In this document: positions 56,221-64,000 of the stretch, piece by piece | How the letters are laid out: every line of letters starts with the position of its first letter | How positions within the stretch are numbered: position 1 is the stretch's first letter | Source of the DNA: Nocardioides marinisabuli | GTDB lineage: Bacteria > Actinomycetota > Actinomycetes > Propionibacteriales > Nocardioidaceae | Reading direction: 5' to 3' | Assembly: GCF_013466785.1 (NCBI RefSeq) | Contig: NZ_CP059163.1 | Coordinates: 1,364,001-1,428,000, forward strand | DNA: 64,000 nucleotides | Position numbers and translations under genes: made by a program | Notes under the pieces: model-generated | What the model was told of the DNA's origin: nothing | The model's input: the letters and a program-made list of their open reading frames with translations, nothing else | Database searches by the model: none

Positions 56221-56248
56221 CGCGACATCTGGGCCGGGTCGGCGGGTC
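56209..56248 (+). repeat. 22-bp-period repeat, family A (2 units)
   Basis: GCCGGGTCGGCG recurs at 56211 and 56233 with CGACATCTGG between. The first copy is the right arm of the hairpin, and the second runs into the fadB stop codon. Confidence 0.7.
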
Positions 56249-58454
56249 AGGCGGGGAAGGACTCGCCCTTCTCGGCCATCTCGCGCAGGCGGTCCGTGGG
56301 CCGGAACCGGTCGCCGTACACCTCGGCGAGCTCGTCGGCGCGGCGCACGAAGGCCGCGAGGCCCACCTCGCCGTCGACGTGGGTGTAGCCCTGCATGAAC
56401 TGCGCGGCGCCACCGGTCATCGGCGGGAAGCCGATGCCCATGATCGAGCCGATGTTGGCGGCCGCGGCGGAGGTGATGACGCCCTCCTCGAAGCACTTGG
56501 CGGTCTCGAGCGCCTCGGCGAAGAGCATCCGGTCGCGGCAGTCGGCGATCGGGGGCTGCTCCTCGGCCACCGGGAACAGGTCGGAGAGACCGGCCCAGAT
56601 GGACTGGCGCTTGCCCTGCTCGTCGTAGTCGTAGAAGCCCGCGCCGCGCAGGCGGCCCGCGCGGCCGGCCTCGAGCATCCGGTCGACCACGGCGGTGCCG
56701 GGGTGCTCCGCGACCTGCTTGCCGTCGCGCTCGTTCGCCTCGCGGGTGGCCTTGGCGATCTTGCCCATCAGCTCGAGGTTGAGCTCGTCGGAGAGCTGCA
56801 GCACCGGGGCGGGGTAGCCGGCCTGGGTGGTGGCCCGCTCGATGGTCCAGGGCGCCACGCCCTCGGCCAGCATCGCCATGCCCTCGTTGACCATGAAGCC
56901 GATGACGCGCGAGGTGTAGAAGCCGCGCGAGTCGTTGACCACGATCGGGGTCTTGCGGATCTGCTGCACGACGTCGTACGCCTTGGCCAGCGCCTCGTCG
57001 GAGGTCTGCTCGCCCTTGATGATCTCGACCAGCGGCATCTTGTCGACAGGGCTGAAGAAATGCAGGCCGATGAAGTCGGCGGGGCGGTCGACGCCCTCGG
57101 CGAGCTCGGAGATCGGCAGCGTCGAGGTGTTGGAGCACAGCAGCGCGTCGGGGTTGACGTGCGGGGCCACCTCGGCGAAGACCTTGGCCTTCAGCGCGGG
57201 GTCCTCGAAGACGGCCTCGATCACCAGGTCGCAGCCGGCCAGGTCGGCCGGGTCGGCGGTGGCGTGGATGCGCCCGAGGAGCTCGTCGGACTTCTCCTGG
57301 GTGAGCTTGCCGCGCTCGACGGCCTTGGCGTTGAGCTTCTCGGAGTAGGCCTTGCCCTTGGCGGCGTTCTCGGCCGAGACGTCCTTGAGCACGACCTGCA
57401 TGCCGGCGCGGGCGCAGGAGTAGGCGATGCCGGCGCCCATCATGCCGGCGCCCAGGACGCCGACCTTGGTGGCCTGGAAGCGCTCGACGCCCTGCGGGCG
57501 CAGCTTGCCGGCGCCGATCGCCTGCAGGTCGAAGAAGAACGCCTGGATCATGTTCTTCGAGCCCTGGTTGACGATCAAGTTGGTCAGGTAGCGCGACTCG
57601 ATGCGCGAGGCGGTGTCGAAGTCGCGGCTGGCGCCCTCGACCGCGGCCGAGAGGATCGCGCGGGTGGCCGGGTAGACGGCACCCTTGGTCTGCTTGCGCA
57701 GCAGCGCCGGGAAGGCGGGCAGGAACGCCGCGAGGCCGGGCGAGCGGGGCGTGCCGCCGGGCATCTTGTAGCCCGGGGCGTCCCAGGGGTTGGCGTGCGC
57801 GTCAGGGTTGGCCTTGATCCAGGCCTTCGCCGCCGGCACCAGCTCCTCGCGGGTGGCGACCAGCTCGTCGACCAGGCCGGCCTCCTTGGCCTGGGCCGGC
57901 TTGAACTGCTTGCCCTCGAGCAGCACGCCCATCAGCGCGTCCTGCAGGCCCAGCATCCGCACGGTGCGGGTCACGCCGCCGCCGCCGGGCAGCAGGCCGA
58001 GGGTGACCTCGGGCAGGCCCAGCGCGACCTTGGGGTCGTCGACGACGATGCGGTGGTTGCAGGCCAGGGTGATCTCGAGGCCGCCGCCGAGCGCGGCGCC
58101 GTTGATGGCCGCCACGACCGGGCGGGGCAGCTTCTCGAGGCGGCGCAGGGCGGCCTTCATGCCCTCGGCCATCTCGAAGACGGCTGCGGCGTCCTCGGGG
58201 CCGGTCTTGACCATGCCCTTGAGGTCGCCGCCGGCGAAGAAGGTCTTCTTGGCGCTGGCCACCACGACGCCGGTGACCGACGACCCGTCGGCGGCCAGCT
58301 CGTCGTACAGGCGGTCGATCGCTGCGTCCATGGACGAGCGGTAGAGGTCGTTCATGGTGTTCGCGGACTGGTTCGGGTCGTCGAGGGTCAGGGTGACGAT
58401 GCCGTCGGCGTCCTTGTCGTAGCGGACTGCCGTCTGGGTCTCGGTGCTGCTCAT
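56247..58454 (-). CDS. fadB: Multifunctional enoyl-CoA hydratase/3-hydroxyacyl-CoA dehydrogenase
   Basis: 735 residues, standard for the trifunctional alpha subunit. The N-terminal crotonase domain has [10 protein letters not shown] and [18 protein letters not shown]. The NAD-binding 3-hydroxyacyl-CoA dehydrogenase domain has [28 protein letters not shown] and [13 protein letters not shown], followed by the C-terminal dehydrogenase domain. It performs hydration and dehydrogenation in beta-oxidation, passing 3-ketoacyl-CoA to the thiolase encoded 63 nt upstream. Regulated with that gene by the MerR-type promoter. The gene ends at a repeat/hairpin. Confidence 0.95.
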
Positions 58455-58517: not shown

Positions 58518-59729
58518 TCAGACCAGCTCGACGATCGTCGCGATGCCCATCCCGCCGCCGACGCAGAGCGTGGCCAGGCCGCGCTTCTGGTCGCGGCGGG
58601 CCAGCTCGTCGATGAGGGTGCCGAGGATCATCGCGCCGGTGGCGCCGAGGGGGTGGCCCATCGCGATCGCGCCGCCGTTGACGTTGGTGATCTCGTGGCT
58701 GATGCCCATGTCGCGCATGAAGCGCATCGCCACCGCGGCGAAGGCCTCGTTGATCTCGAACAGGTCGATGTCGTCGACCTCGAGGCCGGCCTTGGCCAGG
58801 GCCTTGCGGGCGGCCGGGGCGGGGCCGGTCAGCATGATCGTGGGGTCGGCGCCCGAGACGGCCATCGACACGATGCGCGCCCGCGGGGTCAGGCCGAGGT
58901 CGGTGCCGACCTGCTCGCTGCCGATCGCCACCAGGGCGGCGCCGTCGACGATGCCCGAGGAGTTGCCGGCGTGGTGGACGTGGTCGATCTTCTCGATCCA
59001 GTGGTACTTCTCCAGCGCCACGTCGTCGAAGCCGGCGTCGCGCCCGGTCTGGGCGAAGGAGGGCTTGAGGCCGGCCAGGCCCTCGGGGCTGGTGTCGGGG
59101 CGGATCGTCTCGTCGTGGTCGAGGATCGTCAGCCCGTTGATGTCGCGCACGGGGATCACGGCGTCGGCGAAGTAGCCGTTGGCCCAGGCCTTCGCGGCGC
59201 GGTGGTGGGACTCGGCGGCGTAGGCGTCGACGTCGTCGCGGTTCCAGCCCTCGATGGTGGCGATCAGGTCGGCGCCGATGCCCTGGGGCACGAAGCCGGT
59301 GGTGAGCGCGGTGGCCGGGTCCATCGCCCAGGCGCCGCCGTCGGAGCCCATCGGCACGTTGGACATCGACTCGACGCCGCCGGCGACGATGAGGTCCTCC
59401 ATGCCGCCGCGGATGCGGGCGGCGGCCTGGTTGACGGCCTCGAGGCCGGAGGCGCAGAAGCGGTTGAGCTGCACGCCGGCGACGGTCTCGGGGTAGCCGG
59501 CGGCCAGCGCCGCGGTCTTGGCGATGTCGCCGCCCTGCTCGCCCATCGGGGTCACGACACCCAGCACGACGTCGTCGACGCGGTGCGGGTCGAGCCCGGG
59601 GTTGCGGGTCCGCAGCTCGTCGAGCAGCCCGACGGCGAGGTCGATCGCCTTCACCTCGTGCAGCGAGCCCGCCGCCTTGCCCTTGCCGCGCGGCGTGCGG
59701 ATGTGGTCGTACACGAATGCTTCTGCCAT
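58518..59729 (-). CDS. fadA: Acetyl-CoA C-acyltransferase (3-ketoacyl-CoA thiolase)
   Basis: 403 residues. Active-site Cys92 in [11 protein letters not shown], His in [15 protein letters not shown], and the second Cys in LCVGGGMG. It cleaves 3-ketoacyl-CoA to acetyl-CoA plus a shortened acyl-CoA, the last beta-oxidation step, and partners fadB downstream. The ATG at 59729 gives the family N-terminus ([16 protein letters not shown]); upstream codons cover the promoter. Divergent from the merR gene with the shared regulatory region at 59795-59825. Confidence 0.95.
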
Positions 59730-59794
59730 GACCGTCCTCGGTTCTCGAAGGTGCGCCGCACCCGCCGGGAGGCGTGGGCGCGTGTGCTGACTCG

Positions 59795-59825
59795 ATTGTG
59801 ACACTATTACTGTCAGTGTCGTCAA
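59795..59825 (-). promoter_or_regulatory. MerR-type promoter of fadA-fadB with centred dyad
   Basis: On the minus strand: -35 TTGACG (59825-59820), a 19-bp spacer, -10 CACAAT (59800-59795). The dyad GACACT...AGTGTC (59800-59805 and 59815-59820) is centred on 59810, which is also the centre of the spacer. This is the geometry by which MerR regulators activate. Confidence 0.65.
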
Positions 59826-59860: not shown

Positions 59861-60616
59861 ATGGGCACCACGTCGGAGTCCGGGACCGGTGACCTGCTCA
59901 CGCTCGAGAACCTCACCGCCCGGGTCGGGATGAGCGTGCGCAACGTGCGCTTCTACACCACCAAGGGGCTGCTGCCGCCCCCGATCCGCCACGGCCGCTC
60001 GGGCTACTACAGCGACGACCACGTGGCGCGGCTCGAGCTCGTGCGCGAGCTGCAGGGCCACGGGTTCACGCTCTCGGCGATCGAGCGCTACCTCGCCGCG
60101 GTGCCCGCCGACGCGACGCCCGAGCAGATCGCCCTGCACCGCACCATGCTCGCGCCCTGGCAGGCCGAGGCCGCCGAGGTGATGAGCCACGACGACCTCG
60201 AGACCCGCGCCGGGCGCAGCCTGGCCGACGACGACGTGGCGCTGCTGGCCGCGCTGGGCATCGTGCGCCGCCGCGACGACGAACGGCTCGAGGTGACGCC
60301 CACCCAGCTGACCGTGGGCCTCGGGCTCCTCGACCTCGGCTTCCCCACCGCCGCCGCGACCGCCGCGGCCGAGGTGTACGCCCGGCACGGGCGCCAGGTC
60401 GCCGAGGAGCTCAACGAGCTGTTCCGCACCGTGGTGTGGCCGGCCTACAAGGAGGCGGGCGCCTCGGCCGAGACCGTGCGCGAGGTGGTCGAGCGGATCA
60501 AGCCGCTGTCCATCTCGAGCCTGGTGGCGGCGTACGAGGCCGCGATGGACCAGACCCGCCGCGAGCAGATCCGGGCCCGGGCCGAGCGGGCGGGGCCCGG
60601 ACCCACCGCTGGGTGA
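59861..60616 (+). CDS. MerR-family regulator of the adjacent fadAB operon
   Basis: 251 residues. N-terminal winged helix [27 protein letters not shown], then [30 protein letters not shown]. The remaining ~170 residues form a helical ligand-binding region not of the metal type (no Cys cluster). The ATG has a strong GGAGGGAG ribosome binding site, while an upstream in-frame start would cover the operator. Divergent from fadA with a well-formed 19-bp-spacer promoter between, so it likely senses a fatty acyl ligand (inference). Confidence 0.88.
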
Positions 60617-60639: not shown

Positions 60640-60645
60640 TAGGGT
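60640..60645 (+). promoter_or_regulatory. -10-like TAGGGT before the NmrA-like gene
   Basis: TAGGGT, then 7 nt (GGGGGCC), then the ATG at 60653. No separate ribosome binding site. Confidence 0.45.
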
Positions 60646-60652
60646 GGGGGCC

Positions 60653-61543
60653 ATGAGCCTCACCGTCCTGGTCACCGGCGCCACCGGCTTCGTCGGTCGT
60701 CGCCTCGTCCCCGCCCTCCTCGAGGCCGGCCACGAGGTCAAGGCGATGACGCGGCACCCCGACACCTACCAGGGCGAGGGCGAGGCCGTCTTCGGCGACG
60801 TCGACGACCCGGGCTCGCTGGCAGAGCCCCTCGCCGGCGTCGACGTGGCGATCTACCTGGTGCACTCCCTCGACGACAACGACTTCGAGCGCAAGGACGC
60901 CGAGGCCGCGAAGGCCTTCGCCCTGGCCGCCGCCGCGAACGGGGTGCGCCAGATCGTCTACCTCGGCGGGCTGGGCAAGGAGGGCACGCAGCTCTCCCCG
61001 CACCTGCGCTCGCGCCGCGAGGTCGAGTCCCTGCTGGCCGGCTCCGACGTGCCGGTCACGGTGCTGCGCGCCGCCATCGTGGTGGGCGCCGGCGGCATCT
61101 CGTGGGAGATGACCCGCAAGCTCGTCAAGAACCTGCCGGCCATGGTGGTGCCCAAGTGGGCGGCCACCCGCACCCAGCCGATCGCGCTGCACGACGTGAT
61201 CCGCTACATCGTCGGCGTCACCGGCCTCGAGGAGGCCTACGGCCGGGTGCTCGAGATCGGCGGGGCCGACCAGCTCTCCTACGTCGGGATGATGCAGGAG
61301 GCGGGCGAGGTGATGCTCGGGCGCCGGGTGCCGGTGCTCCAGCTGCCCGTCGGCACCCCGCTGCTCTCCTCGTGGTGGATCAAGCTGATCACCGGCGTCA
61401 ACGCCACCACCGCCGGCAACCTCATCGACTCGATGGGCACCGAGGTGCTGCAGACCGACTACGCGATCCGCGACCTGGTGCCCGGCGAGCCGCTCACCTA
61501 CGCCGAGGCCGTGCGCCGCGCCCTGGAGGAGGGCGAGCGCTGA
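60653..61543 (+). CDS. NmrA-like NAD(P)-binding atypical SDR
   Basis: 296 residues. The Rossmann motif VTGATGFVGRRLVPALL (about 6-22) is complete, but the canonical YxxxK pair is missing. IVYLGGLGKEGTQLSPHLRSRREVE is typical of the atypical SDR group that includes NmrA, ubiquinone-assembly-like and stress proteins. It may be a redox-sensing or reductase protein. The ATG lies 7 nt after TAGGGT, preferred to a GTG nine bases earlier. Convergent with cydB across family-B repeats. Confidence 0.85.
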   Translation: MSLTVLVTGATGFVGRRLVPALLEAGHEVKAMTRHPDTYQGEGEAVFGDVDDPGSLAEPLAGVDVAIYLVHSLDDNDFERKDAEAAKAFALAAAANGVRQIVYLGGLGKEGTQLSPHLRSRREVESLLAGSDVPVTVLRAAIVVGAGGISWEMTRKLVKNLPAMVVPKWAATRTQPIALHDVIRYIVGVTGLEEAYGRVLEIGGADQLSYVGMMQEAGEVMLGRRVPVLQLPVGTPLLSSWWIKLITGVNATTAGNLIDSMGTEVLQTDYAIRDLVPGEPLTYAEAVRRALEEGER

Positions 61544-61551
61544 CGGCACGC

Positions 61552-61595
61552 CGAGCGGTCACTTGTGAACCCTCGAGAGGTCACTTCTGCACCTC
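61552..61595 (+). repeat. 22-bp-period tandem repeat, family B (2 units)
   Basis: Units at 61552 and 61574: CGAGCGGTCAC then TTGTGAACCCT, and CGAGAGGTCAC then TTCTGCACCTC. The second unit contains the cydB stop codon and encodes its last residues (VQK). Confidence 0.75.
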
Positions 61596-62606
61596 GCGCG
61601 CTCCCGGCGCTCCGCTCCAGGCCTCGGTCTGGGTCAGCCACAGCAGGTAGCCCAGCGCGGGCAGCACCAGCACCGCCGCGAGACCGACCACGACCAGCAG
61701 CCCCTGCAGGGTCGCGGGTGCTCCTGCGGCCTGCACGAGGGTGACCTCGTCGACCAGCAACCAGGGGTACTGCGCCACACCCCAGCCGCTGACCACCGAC
61801 GCCACGGCCAGCACGGCGCTCCACCGGGCGGGGCCGAAGCGGCGTACGGCGACGAGGACCACGGTGGTGAGGCCGGCGACGAACGAGAGCAGCACCAGGG
61901 GCAGCGCACGCCCCGTGAGCCCGGCCCACAGCATGGGGGCGTCGTCGTGGAGCGGCACCAGGGCCGCCAGCACCACCGCTCCGGTGAGCAGGCCCACGAC
62001 AAGCACCCGCCGGCGCAGCGCAGCCGTGAGCCCGGCCTTCCCGGCCCGGGCCGCGTCGGTGACCAGGAAGACCCCGGCGAGGAAGGCGCAGGTGCCGACC
62101 GCCACGACCCCGCCGACCAGTGACGTCGTGCCCGTCCAGGACGCCCACGGGTCGCCCTCGCCGGCCGTCGGCACCCGACCCGAGGCGATCGCCCCGGCGA
62201 CGGTGCCGAGGAAGAACGGCGTGACCACGGACGAGACGGCGAAGACCACGCCGAAGAACCGGGCCTGGGCCACCGTGGCGGCGTACTTGCGGAAGGCGAA
62301 CGCCGAGCCGCGCAGCACGATGCCGACCAGGGCCAGGACCAACGGGACCGCCAACGTGGTCGCCACCGCGGCGAAGGTCGAGGGGAAGCCGGTCCACCAC
62401 ACGACGAGCACGAAGATCAGCCAGACGTGGTTGGCCTCCCAGACCGGGCCGATGCTGTGGTCGACCTGGCGGCGCAGCTCGGCGCCTCGCCGGGTCCCGC
62501 CCGCCGTGAGGTCGTAGAAGCCGGAGCCGAAGTCGGCCCCGCCCAGCACGGAGTAGGCGACCACCCCGGTGAACAGGGCCGCGGCGACCGCGATCTCGAG
62601 GCTCAT
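61581..62606 (-). CDS. cydB: Cytochrome bd ubiquinol oxidase subunit II
   Basis: 341 residues with eight or more hydrophobic helices. VLGGADFGSGFYDLTAG and DHSIGPVWEANHVWLIFVLVVWWTGFP are hallmark CydB segments. With CydA it forms the bd-type terminal oxidase, which reduces oxygen without proton pumping and supports growth at low oxygen or under respiratory inhibition. The ATG overlaps the cydA stop by ATGA. The 3' end, including the stop codon, is made of repeat sequence. Confidence 0.93.
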   Translation of the reverse strand: MSLEIAVAAALFTGVVAYSVLGGADFGSGFYDLTAGGTRRGAELRRQVDHSIGPVWEANHVWLIFVLVVWWTGFPSTFAAVATTLAVPLVLALVGIVLRGSAFAFRKYAATVAQARFFGVVFAVSSVVTPFFLGTVAGAIASGRVPTAGEGDPWASWTGTTSLVGGVVAVGTCAFLAGVFLVTDAARAGKAGLTAALRRRVLVVGLLTGAVVLAALVPLHDDAPMLWAGLTGRALPLVLLSFVAGLTTVVLVAVRRFGPARWSAVLAVASVVSGWGVAQYPWLLVDEVTLVQAAGAPATLQGLLVVVGLAAVLVLPALGYLLWLTQTEAWSGAPGAREVQK

Positions 62607-64000
62607 CGGCGCAGCTCCTCCGCAGGCTCCAGCTCGGGACCGTAGGGGCTCGGCAGGCTCTCGTCGCCCTCGCGCCAGCGGCGGGCCATCGAGCGCAGCA
62701 CCAGCACCGCGCCGATCGTCATCGCGGCGTACAGGACCGCGGAGGCGCCCAGCACCCACCACAGCGCGGTGGAGGCGTTGCCCGCGGCCTCGGTCGTGCG
62801 CATCACCCCGTAGACCACCCACGGCTGGCGGCCCACCTCGGTGGCGATCCACCCGGCCTCGAGCGCCACCACGGCCAACGGCCCGGCCGCCACCGCGGCC
62901 CGCAGGAGCCAGGTGCCGCCACGCGTCTCCGAGCGCAGGAGGTCGTGCCCGCGCCAACGCGCGACCCAGTACACCAGCGCGAGCAGCGCCAGCGCGGTGC
63001 CGATGCCGACCATCGACTGGAAGGCCAGGTGCGTGATGTTGACCGGGGGCTGCTCGTCGAGCGGGATGGTGTCGAGACCCTGGACCGGGGCCGTCAGCGA
63101 GTTCCGCGCGATCAGGGAGCCCAGGTAGGGGATGTCGATCGACCAGCGTGCCTCCCCGTCGACCAGCAACCCGCCGAGCCGCAACGGCGAGGGGCTCTCG
63201 GTCTCCGTGGCGAGCTCGAAGGCGGCCAGCTTGGCGGGCTGCGTGTCGGCCAGGCGCGAGCCGAGCAGGTGCCCGATGGCCGGCTGCAGGAGCGCCGCCA
63301 CCGAGGCGAAGGCGAAGGGCACCGTGAAACCGAGCCGGTGGTGCCGGTCGCGCCGGCCCCGCAGCATGCCAGCGGCGTACACCGCGGCGACCGAGAAGCC
63401 GGCGACCATGAACGCAGCCACCCACATGTGCAGGAACTGCCACAGCACGCCGCTGTTGAACATCGCGGCCCACGGGTCGACGTCGGTGACCTCGCCGTCG
63501 ACGATGCGGAAGCCGGTCGGGTTGTTCATCCACCCGTTCACCGCCAGCACGCTGAAGGTGCCGGCGATGCCGGTCAGGGCCATCGGCACCAGCATCAGCA
63601 GGTGCCGGCGCGGGGGGATCCGTCCCCAGCCGTAAAGGTAGATGCCCAGGAAGATCGCCTCGAGGAAGAAGGCGACCCCCTCGAAGGCGAACGGCAGCCC
63701 CAGCACGTCTCCGAAGCGGCCCATCAGCCCGGGCCACAGCAGGCCCATCTCGAAGCTCAGGACGGTGCCGGAGACCGCACCGATCGCGAAGAGCACCGCT
63801 GAGACCTTGGCCCAGCGCCGGGCGAGCACGAGCGCGAGCGGGTCGTCGCGGTAGACCCCGCGCCAGTGCATCACCAGGATCATGGTGGGGAACGCGACGC
63901 CGAAGCAGGCCAGCACGATGTGCCAGCCCAACGAGAGGGCCATCTGCTGGCGCGCGGGCAGGAGACCAGCCGGGTCGGGGACGTCGGCCGCGAGGGTGGT
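62603..64000 (-). CDS. cydA: Cytochrome bd ubiquinol oxidase subunit I (start outside window)
   Basis: The frame stays open to the window edge. It encodes 446 residues from an internal ATG at 63943, preceded in frame by DPAGLLPARQQ, which matches the usual CydA N-terminus before QMALSLGWHI. The true start is therefore probably beyond 64000, and the ATG at 63943 should not be taken as the start. The heme-ligand His is in SLGWHIV, a second is in LHMWVAAFM, and the quinol-loop region is short (LLVDGEARWSIDIPYLGS), as in CioA-type or Q-loop-short enzymes. First gene of cydAB; cydDC is not in the window. Confidence 0.93.
   Translation of the reverse strand, partial: TTLAADVPDPAGLLPARQQMALSLGWHIVLACFGVAFPTMILVMHWRGVYRDDPLALVLARRWAKVSAVLFAIGAVSGTVLSFEMGLLWPGLMGRFGDVLGLPFAFEGVAFFLEAIFLGIYLYGWGRIPPRRHLLMLVPMALTGIAGTFSVLAVNGWMNNPTGFRIVDGEVTDVDPWAAMFNSGVLWQFLHMWVAAFMVAGFSVAAVYAAGMLRGRRDRHHRLGFTVPFAFASVAALLQPAIGHLLGSRLADTQPAKLAAFELATETESPSPLRLGGLLVDGEARWSIDIPYLGSLIARNSLTAPVQGLDTIPLDEQPPVNITHLAFQSMVGIGTALALLALVYWVARWRGHDLLRSETRGGTWLLRAAVAAGPLAVVALEAGWIATEVGRQPWVVYGVMRTTEAAGNASTALWWVLGASAVLYAAMTIGAVLVLRSMARRWREGDESLPSPYGPELEPAEELRR

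Follow-up and report, generated by a model that had tools for sequence, protein, structure and literature searches.

The classical MerR-family activators, among them MerR, CueR, SoxR, and BmrR, act on promoters with 19–20 bp spacers, and in these subfamilies the operator center lies a fixed 7–8 bp beyond the −35 element, counted from its 3′ end (PMC5045206). Shortening of the spacer abolishes the response to MerR activation (PMC9909328). Repressors have also been described in this family: LiuR controls branched-chain amino acid catabolism, a pathway with acyl-CoA intermediates, in Proteobacteria (PMC3223726, PMC5343134), and the binding sites of HnoC and McdR cover the start site and the −10 element (PMC9938897). 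FadR, PsrA, and FadP share with the regulator considered here a role in the control of beta-oxidation, but they are GntR or TetR proteins unrelated to MerR (PMC5343134).

The locus analyzed here is contained in a 64,000-nt window of the Nocardioides marinisabuli genome (GCF_013466785.1, NZ_CP059163.1, positions 1,364,001–1,428,000 of the forward strand), which is a single-contig chromosome of 4.17 Mb. The regulator gene (59861–60616, plus strand) encodes a 251-aa protein, assigned to the MerR family by fold and profile comparisons, whose nearest named relatives are from Nocardioides. Its N-terminal winged helix-turn-helix (HTH) domain occupies residues 15–80 (PF13411, E = 4.5e-19), with structural matches to CadR, CueR, and GlnR over residues 13–84, and a C-terminal helical domain spans residues 86–243 approximately. 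A preliminary description of this region, made from its sequence, had proposed that the regulator controls the divergent and adjacent fadA-fadB genes, and both the gene arrangement and the families of the target genes were borne out. Specifically, fadA (58518–59729, minus strand) encodes an acetyl-CoA C-acyltransferase (thiolase; NF006090, 687 bits versus a cut-off of 514), and a fadB/fadJ-like gene (56247–58454, minus strand) encodes an enoyl-CoA hydratase/3-hydroxyacyl-CoA dehydrogenase with matches to PF02737 and PF00378; its score against NF008363 (510 bits) is below the equivalog cut-off of 869. An NAD(P)-binding epimerase-like gene (60644–61543, plus strand) lies 3′ of the regulator gene in the same direction and is possibly cotranscribed with it; a similar gene is also found 3′ of the regulator gene in another genome (G047, L095). 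Further downstream (61581–63943, minus strand), two long open reading frames resemble, by eye, the cytochrome bd oxidase genes cydA and cydB.

The preliminary description also proposed a dyad, GACACT-N9-AGTGTC (59800–59820, minus strand), as the operator, centered on 59810 in the middle of the fadA promoter spacer. Its position is accurate, but it was not borne out as the functional unit: 29% of shuffled versions of the 131-bp region contain a 6-bp inverted repeat, and the left arm GACAC is present in orthologs only among near relatives. The right arm belongs to a conserved element, as the regulator-fadA intergenic regions of orthologs share a near-invariant block, TGACA-N7-TGTCACAATC. The corresponding operator core in the window, TGACAGTAATAGTGTCA (TGACA-N7-TGTCA; 59799–59815, minus strand), is centered on 59807. 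The operator had thus been misplaced by 3 bp, and the dyad first proposed was rejected as the operator; it is regarded as a match that arose in part by accident on top of the genuine site.

The conserved dyad TGACA-N7-TGTCA is far above chance. The fadA promoters have additional outer bases, A(−4) in 68/68 promoters, mirrored by the T of the −10 hexamer CACAAT, and G(−5) in 58/68; since both mirror the TC at the opposite end, the full site extends over ~27 bp, as GAnnnTGACA-N7-TGTCACAATC (59794–59820, minus strand). Among 126 distinct fadA promoters from Nocardioides, Aeromicrobium, Kribbella, and relatives, 115 match all 14 fixed operator positions in a constant register to CACAAT. Of the 59 genomes of the genus, 50 contain the long form of the operator together with CACAAT, and the reversed control pattern gave 0 matches. 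The inverted repeat expected of a dimeric MerR-type regulator is thus present at the sequence level in these 126 promoters, and its binding by the regulator is predicted. Only two exact copies of TGACA-N-T-N5-TGTCA occur in the 4.17-Mb genome, each located between a MerR gene and a gene of fatty-acid oxidation; the second copy separates a paralogous MerR gene (41% identity) from a divergent acyl-CoA dehydrogenase gene. In a class-wide scan, matches were confined to two genera of the same family because the restricted pattern also fixed one loop base. Tandem operator pairs were observed upstream of fadA in some Nocardioides (L118, 1423–1464, and the intergenic region of L036).

On the minus strand, the hexamers TTGACG (59820–59825) and CACAAT (59795–59800) are separated by 19 bp, exactly as initially described. 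CACAAT, which lies within the right operator arm, is credible as a genuine −10 element because in 15/68 fadA promoters (Nocardioides and Kribbella-like) the ATG start codon follows only 6–7 nt downstream, which fits a leaderless mRNA. In the window, the fadA transcription start is predicted at about 59788. The spacer, however, is not a conserved feature. Across the 126 promoters, TTGAC is located 19 bp from CACAAT in 48 cases, 16 bp in 52, and 18 bp in 2, and is absent from 24, while the register between the operator and the −10 element is unchanged throughout; no spacer of 17 bp was found. On the FadA tree, the 16/19 state switched repeatedly, with the 16-bp class accounting for at least three switches on strongly supported branches. 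In the Kribbella-like genus (g117), TTGAC is present in 8/9 promoters, all with 19 bp, suggesting that the 19-bp spacer is probably ancestral. The two main classes may be explained by the loss of one GAC repeat from TTGACGAC. With G(−5) and A(−4) fixed by the operator, TTGAC would fit only if it overlaps the operator at 16 bp or clears it at 19 bp, which would also account for the absence of 17-bp spacers.

With one mismatch allowed, the N. marinisabuli genome has further operator sites in front of etfBA (107355), an AMACR-like gene for a CoA-transferase III (1434336), and a gene for an SDR dehydrogenase (2323171). The site is conserved in front of CoA-transferase III in 25/30 genomes of the genus, of etfB in 11/30, and of SDR in 10/30, as compared to 0.2–0.5% of shuffled upstream regions. 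Four other one-mismatch sites (525118, 558711, 1960084, and 3392189) were taken as chance occurrences, having no clear target or lying within coding sequence. Elsewhere in the genus, the site also precedes acyl-CoA dehydrogenase genes, and at other loci (L086–L091, L094, and L099) it is located between an F420:NADP oxidoreductase gene and a divergent gene for an F420-type luciferase-like oxidoreductase, followed by an acyl-CoA dehydrogenase gene, suggesting a possible link of F420 to fatty-acid oxidation. Apart from these F420 genes, all predicted targets belong to acyl-CoA oxidation. That the same operator marks a beta-oxidation regulon, comprising in addition to fadA-fadB the acyl-CoA dehydrogenase gene beside the paralogous MerR gene, etfBA, CoA-transferase III, and SDR, is therefore well supported by comparative genomics. 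Most CoA-transferase III promoters have the same arrangement as fadA, with CAnnAT-like hexamers (CATGAT, CAGGAT) in the same register. SDR genes have a separate TATGCT-like −10 element (by eye) downstream of the site at a varying distance, which an activator with strict positional requirements would not tolerate, and at other targets the spacing between site and promoter differs or a −35 element is missing altogether.

The operator is linked to this regulator family. fadA adjoins the regulator gene in 28 of the first 30 loci of the genus; in a species-level collection of genomes, the segments retrieved for the 80 closest relatives all contain fadA, in divergent orientation in 79. In two genomes (G047 and G042), an insertion separates the two genes and each retains its own site; the site of the regulator gene directly precedes its start, suggesting autoregulation. 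In the genus set, the motif is likewise missing from the two genomes that have no close homolog of the regulator. In large Streptomyces-like genomes, the gene for a homolog with ~41% identity follows an acd-fadA-fadB or fadA-fadB cluster in convergent orientation, and its own upstream region contains a related sequence, GACAGcAATACTGT. These observations argue against an operator for another factor, such as a TetR-family protein encoded at a different locus and repressing fatty-acid oxidation, with the MerR neighbor being incidental. TGACA-N7-TGTCA would also be plausible as a TetR-type palindrome, and in one genome (G058) fadA keeps its site with no neighboring regulator, although more distant regulator homologs are encoded elsewhere in that genome. 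Given that the site tracks MerR genes at the separated loci, at the paralog, in autoregulatory positions, and in the related dyad of the Streptomyces-like homologs, this explanation is considered highly improbable. The motif is common to the two MerR paralogs in the N. marinisabuli genome, so that either of them may bind a given site.

The operator, its register to the −10 element, its conservation, its linkage to the regulator family, and its targets are all features that can be read from the genomes themselves; the direction of control, the ligand, and the binding of the regulator to the operator are what we infer. The regulator is probably an autoregulated MerR-type repressor of the beta-oxidation regulon that is relieved by a fatty-acid or acyl-CoA ligand. 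According to this model, the regulator gene and the divergent fadA-fadB operon are both controlled from this one region. A regulator dimer would most likely bind the extended dyad, which spans the spacer and includes the −10 element of the fadA promoter, and would thereby exclude RNA polymerase or block promoter opening, repressing fadAB and probably the regulator gene as well. The regulator would then leave the DNA once its C-terminal helical domain has bound a fatty acid or acyl-CoA.

The preliminary description had instead regarded the promoter as textbook MerR geometry, in which the regulator represses a 19-bp promoter and, with ligand, untwists the DNA to align the −35 and −10 elements. 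The locus does share with classical activators the MerR HTH fold, an inverted-repeat operator between and over the hexamers, a divergent regulator gene, and a 19-bp spacer with TTGAC, the latter found also in nearly all Kribbella-like promoters; the lack of 17-bp spacers points in the same direction, but is accounted for by the operator bases G(−5) and A(−4). It differs from them in that the operator center, counted in the same way, is located 12 bp beyond the −35 element in the window and 9 bp beyond it in orthologs with 16-bp spacers, as opposed to 7–8 bp in the classical subfamilies, in that the −10 element lies inside an operator arm, and in having a larger C-terminal domain of another type. 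Moreover, about half of the TTGAC-bearing orthologs have a 16-bp spacer, reached by several switches on the tree with no change in the operator/−10 register. DNA torsion was rejected as the best reading of a conserved mechanism on these spacer data, and the activation mechanism first proposed is probably wrong; we regard it as unlikely, if still the foremost of the alternatives. Repression is favored over torsion because the spacer is either 16 or 19 bp, the −10 element is inside the operator, the site varies in position at other targets, and the operator center is 12 bp from the −35 element. Two observations run against a pure repressor, namely, the retention of the 19-bp spacer in the Kribbella-like promoters with TTGAC, which such a repressor would not need, and the constant operator/−10 register shared by the promoters of fadA and CoA-transferase III, as would also be needed for activation. 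A dual-mode regulator, acting as a repressor at some targets and as a lineage-specific activator at 19-bp fadA promoters, would be compatible with the persistence of both spacer classes within the genus, and CvkR has been proposed to use different modes at 21-bp and 17-bp promoters (PMC9938897). However, the repeated switching between 16 and 19 bp among close relatives would demand equally repeated switching of mechanism, making this the least probable of the readings considered.

Ligand-lifted repression of fadAB is the most economical reading, since the geometry is non-classical and both LiuR and MerR-type repressors overlapping the −10 element are known. McdR, HnoC, and CvkR act on palindromes overlapping the −10 element or start site (PMC9938897), as would the regulator studied here; they have other functions, the CvkR motif AnnACATnATGTnnT is different, and no link to lipids is described for them in PMC9938897. 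LiuR, by its description, shares the MerR family, acyl-CoA catabolism targets, and a repressor role, but occurs in another phylum with other core targets. Thus, MerR control of fatty-acid oxidation is indeed unusual, as had been noted, although LiuR provides a precedent (PMC3223726). Literature searches of open-licence papers yielded no paper on this regulator or on such a fatty-acid oxidation regulon in these Actinobacteria, and the well-supported MerR beta-oxidation regulon of Nocardioides, Aeromicrobium, and Kribbella-like genomes is apparently undescribed. It provides a concrete and testable candidate regulator, operator, and regulon through which a large group of Actinobacteria may control core fatty-acid oxidation. 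It also illustrates that a 19-bp spacer with a dyad can mimic textbook MerR control and yet fail a comparative test.

The C-terminal domain offers an indication of the ligand. A Pfam scan gave no family name for this domain. AlphaFold2 models place a second winged-helix-like unit and two long helices after the MerR HTH. When the C-terminal domain was compared by itself with solved structures, the top match was Rv1264N, which is the regulatory domain of Rv1264, an adenylyl cyclase of mycobacteria (Foldseek rank 1, with a weak E of 0.1 and a probability of 0.75–0.87; Z of 5.5 over 141 residues, weak in absolute terms). Alignment of the regulator profile with 14 Ad_Cy_reg homologs by hhalign gave a probability of 84% and a score of 43.1 over ~148 columns, whereas the highest score among 100 column-shuffled controls was 24.5 and reversed profiles scored 16.7–18.6; the C-terminal domain alone scored 30.1 versus 20.9 for the control. 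The same comparison with a pairwise tool was lower, with probabilities of 52% for the whole protein and 5% for the C-terminal domain. When solved structures were searched by sequence using the regulator profile, MerR HTH matches were recovered and Rv1264 was not, and the Pfam family PF16701 (Ad_Cy_reg) was absent from the families listed for the window protein and from the 25 most frequent for 49 homologs. The putative resemblance to Rv1264N consists of the best fold match and the profile-profile match, with the difference that in Rv1264 the domain is fused to a cyclase rather than to a MerR HTH and that the Pfam model gives no direct match here.

The solved structure of Rv1264 contains oleic acid, which activates the related protein Rv2212 (PMC12505454). 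Of the three fadAB promoters of Streptomyces coelicolor, two require oleic acid for activity in liquid culture (PMC5539140). By analogy with the oleic acid-bound regulatory domain of Rv1264, a fatty-acid or acyl-CoA ligand for the regulator is plausible, in line with the acyl ligand suggested in the preliminary description. The more specific proposal that an actinobacterial family of MerR repressors uses the fatty-acid-sensing domain of Rv1264 to control its beta-oxidation regulon is put forward tentatively, with somewhat less than even confidence. If correct, one lipid sensor would serve both a transcription factor and a second-messenger enzyme, linking lipid sensing in transcription to cAMP signaling. 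Among the proteins encoded by the N. marinisabuli genome is one bearing an Ad_Cy_reg (Rv1264N-type) domain (G000:C1:1677506–1677865, L254).

A second conserved element, roughly TGTGGnnnnGGTCAC, is located ~20 nt from the operator toward the regulator gene in several loci (L016, L018, L021, L022, and others), and TATGAT is found at its position in Kribbella-like genomes; this element may represent the promoter of the regulator gene itself.
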